DNA from: Cupriavidus agavae | Lineage (GTDB): Bacteria > Pseudomonadota > Gammaproteobacteria > Burkholderiales > Burkholderiaceae | Length of the DNA: 64,000 bases | Direction of reading: 5' to 3' | Assembly: GCF_004217045.1 (NCBI RefSeq) | Contig: NZ_SGXM01000001.1 | Location: 496,001 to 560,000 of the forward strand | Shown here: piece by piece, positions 47,506-48,566 of the stretch | Layout: every line of letters begins with the position of its first letter | Position numbering within the stretch: position 1 is the first letter of the stretch | Notes under the pieces: generated by a model | What the model saw: only the letters and a program-made list of their open reading frames with translations | The model's database searches: none | Told to the model about the DNA's origin: nothing | Position numbers and translations under genes: made by a program

Positions 47506-48222
47506 TCAGTGGCTTTCCACCGGCTTCTCGCCGGCGCCGCGTGCGTCGCGGCGCTTCTGCGTCAGCCAGCCGGCGCCGAGCACGCCGCCGATGATCACGA
47601 CATAGAGGCCCCAGTACACGACGGGCTGGCTCTCGAAGAATTCCTTCGTGACCGGCTCGTGCACGATCATCTTGACTGCCGTGAAGGCCAGCACGCCGGC
47701 GCCGATGAAGATCACGGCCGGGAAGCGGGCCATCAGCTTGAGCACCAGGCTCGAACCCCAGACCACGATCGGGATGCTGATCAGCAGGCCCAGCACCACC
47801 AGCAGGAAGCTGCCATGGGCCGCGCCGGCCACGGCCAGCACGTTGTCCACGCCCATCACGGCGTCGGCGATGATGATCGTCTTCATCGCGCCGACCAGCG
47901 TGTTGGCGCCCGAGCCGTGGCCTTCGCCATCGTCCTCGGCGGCCAGCAGCTTGTAGGCGATCCAGACCAGCGCCAGGCCACCGACCAGCAGCAGGCCGGG
48001 GATCTTGAGCAGCCAGACCACGCCAATGGTCATCGCCGAACGGACGACCACGGCACCGATGGTGCCCCAGACGATGGCTTTTTTCTGCAGGTGGGGCGGC
48101 AGGTTACGTGCCGCCAGGGCGATCACGATGGCATTGTCGCCGGCAAGGACCAGGTCGATGACGACGATCGACAGCAGGGCTGTCAGGAATTGCATCGTGA
48201 ACAGATCGGTGAACCACTCCAT
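47506..48222 (-). CDS. TerC-family membrane protein (YkoY/YjbE-like, probable Mn exporter)
   Basis: 238 residues, about seven membrane helices. It starts MEWFTDLFTMQFLTALLSIV. The family motifs are DLVLAGDNAIVIALAARNLP and ADAVMGVDNVLAVAGAAHG, each with a buried Asp/Asn-Asp pair that may bind metal. TerC proteins such as Alx and YkoY export manganese. A yybP-ykoY riboswitch in the leader strongly supports a manganese role here. It is followed by a 13-bp hairpin. Confidence 0.92.
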   Translation of the reverse strand: MEWFTDLFTMQFLTALLSIVVIDLVLAGDNAIVIALAARNLPPHLQKKAIVWGTIGAVVVRSAMTIGVVWLLKIPGLLLVGGLALVWIAYKLLAAEDDGEGHGSGANTLVGAMKTIIIADAVMGVDNVLAVAGAAHGSFLLVVLGLLISIPIVVWGSSLVLKLMARFPAVIFIGAGVLAFTAVKMIVHEPVTKEFFESQPVVYWGLYVVIIGGVLGAGWLTQKRRDARGAGEKPVESH

Positions 48223-48354
48223 GAACGCTCCTCAAAGTGCGAAACAGCTGCGGGCCAGGCGGCCAGCAAGGTCTTTTTGTTTCACATCCGGGATCTGGGC
48301 GAGCGCAGGAAGTCCGATGGGGCCGCCTTTGCAAACCGTAGAAACCAGGTGTGC

Positions 48355-48477
48355 AAAGGTCTTGCTCGACTGACTGGCGCGGAATGCGCACCAGGGTCAG
48401 CACAACCGGAGACGGTTTGAAGGTCTCGGAATGACGATTGTGCTAAGGGCAGACATGCCCCCAAGCTACTCCCCTTT
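48355..48477 (-). promoter_or_regulatory. yybP-ykoY (manganese) riboswitch of the terC gene
   Basis: On the minus strand the RNA has the conserved first segment AAAGGGGAGTAGC (from 48477) and the second segment CGAGACCTTCA. It closes with GCAAGACCTTTGC, whose CCTTT (48359-48355) pairs with the opening AAAGG to form P1. This is the yybP-ykoY aptamer layout. Just downstream, GCAAAGG (48332-48326) can instead pair with CCTTTGC (48359-48353), providing an alternative helix that competes with P1. Known members bind Mn2+ and control TerC-type exporters, which matches the next gene. Ends are approximate. Confidence 0.85.
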
Positions 48478-48537
48478 AACTTCCCTTCTGGAAGGGATTC
48501 GTGCCCGGCAGAATCTCCGTCGAACACGTTGGACGCG

Positions 48538-48566
48538 ATTATAAGGGAACTGCGAGGAAAAATGTT
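48538..48566 (-). promoter_or_regulatory. Promoter of the riboswitch-terC transcript
   Basis: A perfect TATAAT (48543-48538) lies upstream of the aptamer. A weak minus-35 (CAACAT, 48566-48561) sits at 17 bases spacing. Transcription would start near 48531, about 55 bases before the aptamer. Confidence 0.6.

Follow-up and report, generated by a model that had tools for sequence, protein, structure and literature searches.

The leader of terC in the window, i.e. the whole stretch of 64,000 nucleotides that was analysed, probably acts as a Mn2+-sensing yybP-ykoY riboswitch that turns on terC translation via three competing helices, termed H1, H2 and H3 here. While the presence of a Mn riboswitch aptamer upstream of terC is close to certain, Mn2+ is its presumed ligand. 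All features described in the following are located on the minus strand, where a TATAAT hexamer, a hairpin near the expected 5' end, a small hairpin, the aptamer, a region of roughly 130 nt that includes the Shine-Dalgarno sequence and the ATG of terC follow each other in this order. The element had been delimited in the earlier note as 48326-48543; this holds for the aptamer part but not for its extent, as the element runs on to the start codon at 48222.

The terC gene (47506..48222, ATG at 48222) encodes a YjbE-type TerC family membrane protein of 238 aa. Profile searches returned PF03741 at 160 bits and TIGR03717, named R_switched_YjbE, at 225.7 bits against a cut-off of 134.8, and with these two matches a Mn-handling gene is found downstream of the aptamer, as is characteristic of the riboswitch class. 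On the same strand, terC is accompanied by genes for thymidylate synthase and dihydrofolate reductase, and a gene for a histidine-specific methyltransferase is transcribed divergently. The perfect TATAAT noted earlier upstream of the leader is indeed present (48538..48543) and can be read as a -10 element with no good -35 element; a promoter scan requiring both hexamers gave no match in the window leader. Folding predicts a hairpin (48500..48529) near the 5' end of the predicted transcript, whose start is placed near 48531; this hairpin may perhaps serve in 5'-end protection, and a second small hairpin (48496-48483) lies between it and the aptamer. The 5'-end hairpins of the printed Cupriavidus leaders differ in sequence and fold to a similar shape, while the two printed Ralstonia leaders start too near the aptamer to leave room for one.

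The aptamer spans 48353..48478 from P1 to P1. Every landmark motif proposed earlier was found: AAAGGGGAGTAGC at 48477-48465, CGAGACCTTCA inside P3 (48444-48399) and GCAAGACCTTT ending at 48355. Likewise, P1 closes with zero mismatches between AAAGG (48473..48477) and CCTTT (48355..48359), the 5' strand being invariant in 21/21 aligned aptamers. Hallmarks of yybP-ykoY elements are GGGGAGUAGC, a closing P1, a CGUCA segment and a 3' AGACCUUU segment, and all of these are conserved in our alignment, which comprises 21 of 23 picked aptamers (L029 and L035 with long inserts were omitted) and in which 7 of 30 pairs change on both sides.

For comparison, terC leaders were gathered via relatives of the TerC protein and not via the RNA motif. 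The resulting 67 leaders stem from Cupriavidus, the genus of the window (51), Ralstonia (15 of 16 matches were fetched, G202 being omitted) and one further neighbouring genus (1); a Cupriavidus genome that is 54% complete (G011) gave no TerC match. The aptamer is present in all 67 leaders, which represent 66 distinct sequences, while a fourth genus in the family lacks GGGGAGTAGC in 13/13 terC leaders, so that the association of aptamer and terC is not due to chance. A TATAAT-like hexamer resides at most 110 nt upstream in 66/67 leaders.

With the Rfam model RF00080, the 601-nt leader region scored 29.4 bits (E 3e-6), the best match in an E-value search, and a search of the whole genome returned two matches with the terC aptamer in second place (E 6.8e-6). 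The score is below the gathering score of RF00080 in Rfam 15 (45 bits), which serves annotation and does not describe a biological property, and a default scan thus misses the aptamer: the gathering-threshold scan of the window listed a tRNA as sole match and RF00080 was absent. The covariance-model search proposed in the earlier note is hence positive at the E-value level and negative at the Rfam default cut-off; assignment to the yybP-ykoY class is borne out by the significant E-value and the occurrence of the aptamer in all 67 leaders. Upon scanning 20 of the 67 leaders from Cupriavidus, Ralstonia and the neighbouring genus, including that of the window, none reached 45 bits and two were listed with RF00080 at E <=0.01. 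The terC leaders of this clade are therefore likely to be left unannotated by the current Rfam cut-off. Matches to enterovirus, lambda thermosensor, c-di-GMP and snoRNA families in the leader were dismissed as chance, all being below cut-off with E >0.01.

A model termed R1 was built from the 21 aligned aptamers of Cupriavidus, Ralstonia and the neighbouring genus, and its search covered 18 sources picked from the loci at hand. R1 scored 124.2 bits on the window aptamer, which is part of its training set, and 36.8 bits (E 3.4e-8) on E. coli alx, which is not; E. coli mntP (L208) was not listed at E <=1. Distant loci such as L183 and L189 reached 68 to 69 bits, and 43 of 300 genomes from the order Burkholderiales were matched at E <=0.001. 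On the basis of the RF00080 E-value and the reciprocal R1 matches, we treat the terC aptamer as a family member missed by the default cut-off. The low RF00080 score and the failure of all 20 scanned leaders to reach the curated cut-off could also point to a degenerate or ligand-shifted relative that has lost Mn sensing, but the strict or near invariance of the landmark motifs across 21 aligned sequences and the detection of alx by R1 argue against this reading, which we consider highly improbable.

Immediately downstream, the 3' strand of H1, TGCAAAGG (48326..48333), is predicted to capture CCTTTGCA (48359-48352) and thereby to break P1, CCTTT being common to P1 and H1. The proposal that GCAAAGG (48332-48326) acts as a P1-competing strand is reinforced by its conservation across the 67 leaders: GCAAAG is found in 62, GCAGAG, which allows wobble pairing, in four and GCAATG in one, such that the strand is retained as a pairing sequence in 66/67. 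H1 appears in the unconstrained minimum free energy (MFE) fold of the window leader; by single-sequence shuffles it is not significant (271/1000 as good). Taken together, H1 very likely is a P1 competitor. The distance between platform and gene had been given as about 130 bases; we count about 104 nt from H1 to the ATG and 137 nt if measured from the first base of the 3' strand of P1.

H1 is not followed by a U-tract, and a terminator scan of the window leader found no intrinsic terminator, as anticipated, which led us to reject such a structure as the expression platform. In the terminator-type Mn riboswitches L125, L214 and L224, the 3' strand of P1 likewise doubles as the 5' arm of the hairpin that follows, but these hairpins end in a T run, which those of Cupriavidus and Ralstonia do not. 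The lack of a U-tract together with a terminator at the same place elsewhere suggests that H1 is a hairpin in terminator position that is seemingly non-terminating.

This prompts the question of which step is controlled. Rho-dependent termination could be the main output, with H1 forming without Mn and a C-rich stretch loading Rho, and with translation or structure protecting the RNA when Mn is present. The absence of intrinsic terminators would be in line with this, as would the composition between H1 and the Shine-Dalgarno sequence (C 0.37 vs G 0.25 in the window, means of 0.37 vs 0.21 for the 67 leaders) and the action of Rho on the E. coli mntP leader described in PMC11647493. However, for a GC-rich genome the excess of C is modest, the covarying helices H2 and H3 described below would be left unexplained, and Rho could also operate jointly with translational control. 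We regard Rho as the main output as unlikely. The earlier note had mentioned a ribosome binding site or a Rho-dependent step without choosing; the covariation of H2 and H3 favours the former route, with a lesser share of probability falling to the latter.

For the preferred reading, that of translational control, we infer the direction of switching and the order of events as follows. With Mn2+, P1 (AAAGG/CCUUU) would be locked and H1 blocked, leaving the H1 loop strand to pair downstream as H2, which would hold an anti-Shine-Dalgarno strand off the ribosome site. Without Mn2+, GCAAAGG would capture the 3' strand of P1 to form H1, H2 would be lost, and the freed downstream strand would pair with the Shine-Dalgarno region as H3, blocking initiation. 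Being ON with Mn is the direction reported for the family in the case of mntP in PMC11647493, and the same direction for terC would agree both with the family and with the arrangement of helices.

A strand some 40 nt further downstream can base-pair with the H1 loop, and in the window this putative H2 is made up of CACACCTGGTTTCTACGG (48336..48353) and AGATCCCGGATGTG (48283..48296). Such complementarity links ACCUGGUGUUACGG to CCGUAAUCCCAGGU in L009, for instance, and ACCGGAUUUCAUGG to CCAUGCAGUCCGGU in L067. In a swap test on 22 representatives, strands paired better with their own partners (mean -16.3 kcal/mol) than with swapped ones (-12.0 kcal/mol), which was equalled in 0 of 20000 permutations. 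When 24 composites were analysed, 16 both-side pair changes were counted versus 4.6 in shuffles (0/500 as many), whereas the number of H2 pairs changed on both sides, five, was equalled by 47/500 shuffles. To obtain the composites, inner and outer strands were assigned via alignment columns with hand corrections for ten leaders, and 24 of 26 composites were aligned, omitting L057 (shifted register) and L058 (part of the inner strand missing). H2 has a probability above 0.5 in 33/67 leaders when the platform is folded alone. The window and its sister L005 are exceptions: in the window, H2 does not exceed chance expectation (84/200 shuffles as good, 145/1000 with a longer strand), and the corresponding values for L005 are 53/200 and 51/1000.

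The candidate anti-Shine-Dalgarno strand, TCCCGGATGTGAAACA (48278..48293), overlaps the 3' strand of H2 and can pair as H3 with TGTTTCGCACTTTGAGGA (48229..48246), which contains most of the Shine-Dalgarno sequence GAGGAG (48228..48233). H2 and H3 make use of the same downstream strand and are mutually exclusive. In the window, H3 joins UCCCGGAUGUGAAACA to UGUUUCGCACUUUGAGGA through 16 pairs that include GGA of the Shine-Dalgarno sequence, at -16.9 kcal/mol, a value surpassed by 0/44 foreign partners. Since the register of H3 differs between clades, covariation was assessed by swap test and not by alignment columns; 45 representatives gave -10.7 kcal/mol for own and -9.7 kcal/mol for swapped partners, matched by 21/20000 permutations, which points to a conserved pairing over the ribosome site. 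Single-sequence shuffles are weak for H3, with a non-significant 170/1000 in the window and 10/200 or fewer in only 2/67 leaders. All of these covariation tests are inflated by the kinship of the sequences, which weakens the covariation argument for a relay drawn from them. On balance, we favour the view that H2 and H3 function as a translational relay in the clade, though with less certainty in detail for the window, as its H2 is weak.

Folding tests of switching gave mixed outcomes. When the platform of the window was folded alone, the Shine-Dalgarno sequence was 0.41 unpaired when the 3' strand of H1 was available, the MFE fold then containing H2, and 0.15 unpaired after removal of H1, the MFE fold then containing H3, and 43/67 leaders changed in the same direction. 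When full-length leaders were folded under a P1 or H1 constraint, the Shine-Dalgarno sequence opened in only 31/67, with a mean difference of -0.03, 11 leaders above 0.1 and 15 below -0.1. From thermodynamic folding, the relay can thus be neither established nor dismissed, and covariation carries the argument. A simple two-state switch, in which only H1 versus P1 counts, H1 or nearby folding acts on the ribosome site directly and H2 and H3 are by-products, would accommodate the weak H2 of the window, the lack of a uniform Shine-Dalgarno effect in full-length folds and, as judged by eye, the H1-like hairpins without obvious H2 in other Burkholderiales Mn leaders. Such a switch does not account for pairing in H2 and H3 that is preserved across genera through changes on both sides, and we consider it improbable, even more so than Rho as the main output. 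In OFF folds, GGGG of the aptamer pairs with CCCC after H1; this pairing cannot covary and therefore remains an idea. Strand mimicry, i.e. a 5-mer shared by the H1 loop and the bases preceding the Shine-Dalgarno sequence, was dropped, as it occurs in 27/67 leaders and the printed cases are partly U-runs.

The known RF00080 riboswitches (E. coli mntP and alx, L. lactis, X. oryzae) share with the Cupriavidus leader the aptamer motifs, P1 as a switch helix and a TerC or Mn-handling gene, while the latter scores below the Rfam cut-off. E. coli mntP likewise acts on the ribosome site (PMC11647493). In E. coli alx, also matched by R1, a P1-competing hairpin directly follows the aptamer (GACCTTGCC..GGCGAGGTC), but the gene is of the Alx type and that of the window of the YjbE type. 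In the work on L. lactis and X. oryzae, P1.1 serves as the switch helix, like P1 here, but its competitor is an intrinsic terminator, whereas here H1 lacks a U-tract and H2 and H3 come after it. Tentatively, and with slightly less than even confidence, we propose that YjbE-type terC genes of Cupriavidus and Ralstonia are preceded by a Mn riboswitch subtype below the Rfam cut-off with an H1/H2/H3 relay that reuses the position of the terminator hairpin for translational control. No description of such a platform for terC of these genera was found in the accessible portions of the literature searched (including PMC10882993, PMC2864759, PMC11647493, PMC3766115, PMC6754395, PMC11087558 and PMC9603457), subscription papers lying outside the search. 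The proposal would bring a well-studied metal riboswitch into a metal-tolerant genus, where its translational platform is concrete and open to testing, and it allows species in which one switch helix is coupled to terminators to be compared with others in which it is coupled to the ribosome site.

The genome of the window features a second Mn riboswitch (L001 1501-1708, G000:C1:1929496; 58.3 bits with RF00080) before a gene of the GDT1 family (PF01169), to which R1 gave 25.6 bits. Downstream, a long hairpin lacking a U-tract is able to capture the P1 strand of this riboswitch. In L042, L212, L228 and other Burkholderiales loci, two Mn aptamers are arranged back to back on opposite strands, one preceding a TerC-type gene and the other a gene for a LysR-type regulator. 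Pfam LysR domains were confirmed for the regulators of L042 and L212, and the placement of a Mn riboswitch ahead of a LysR regulator gene may merit a separate study.
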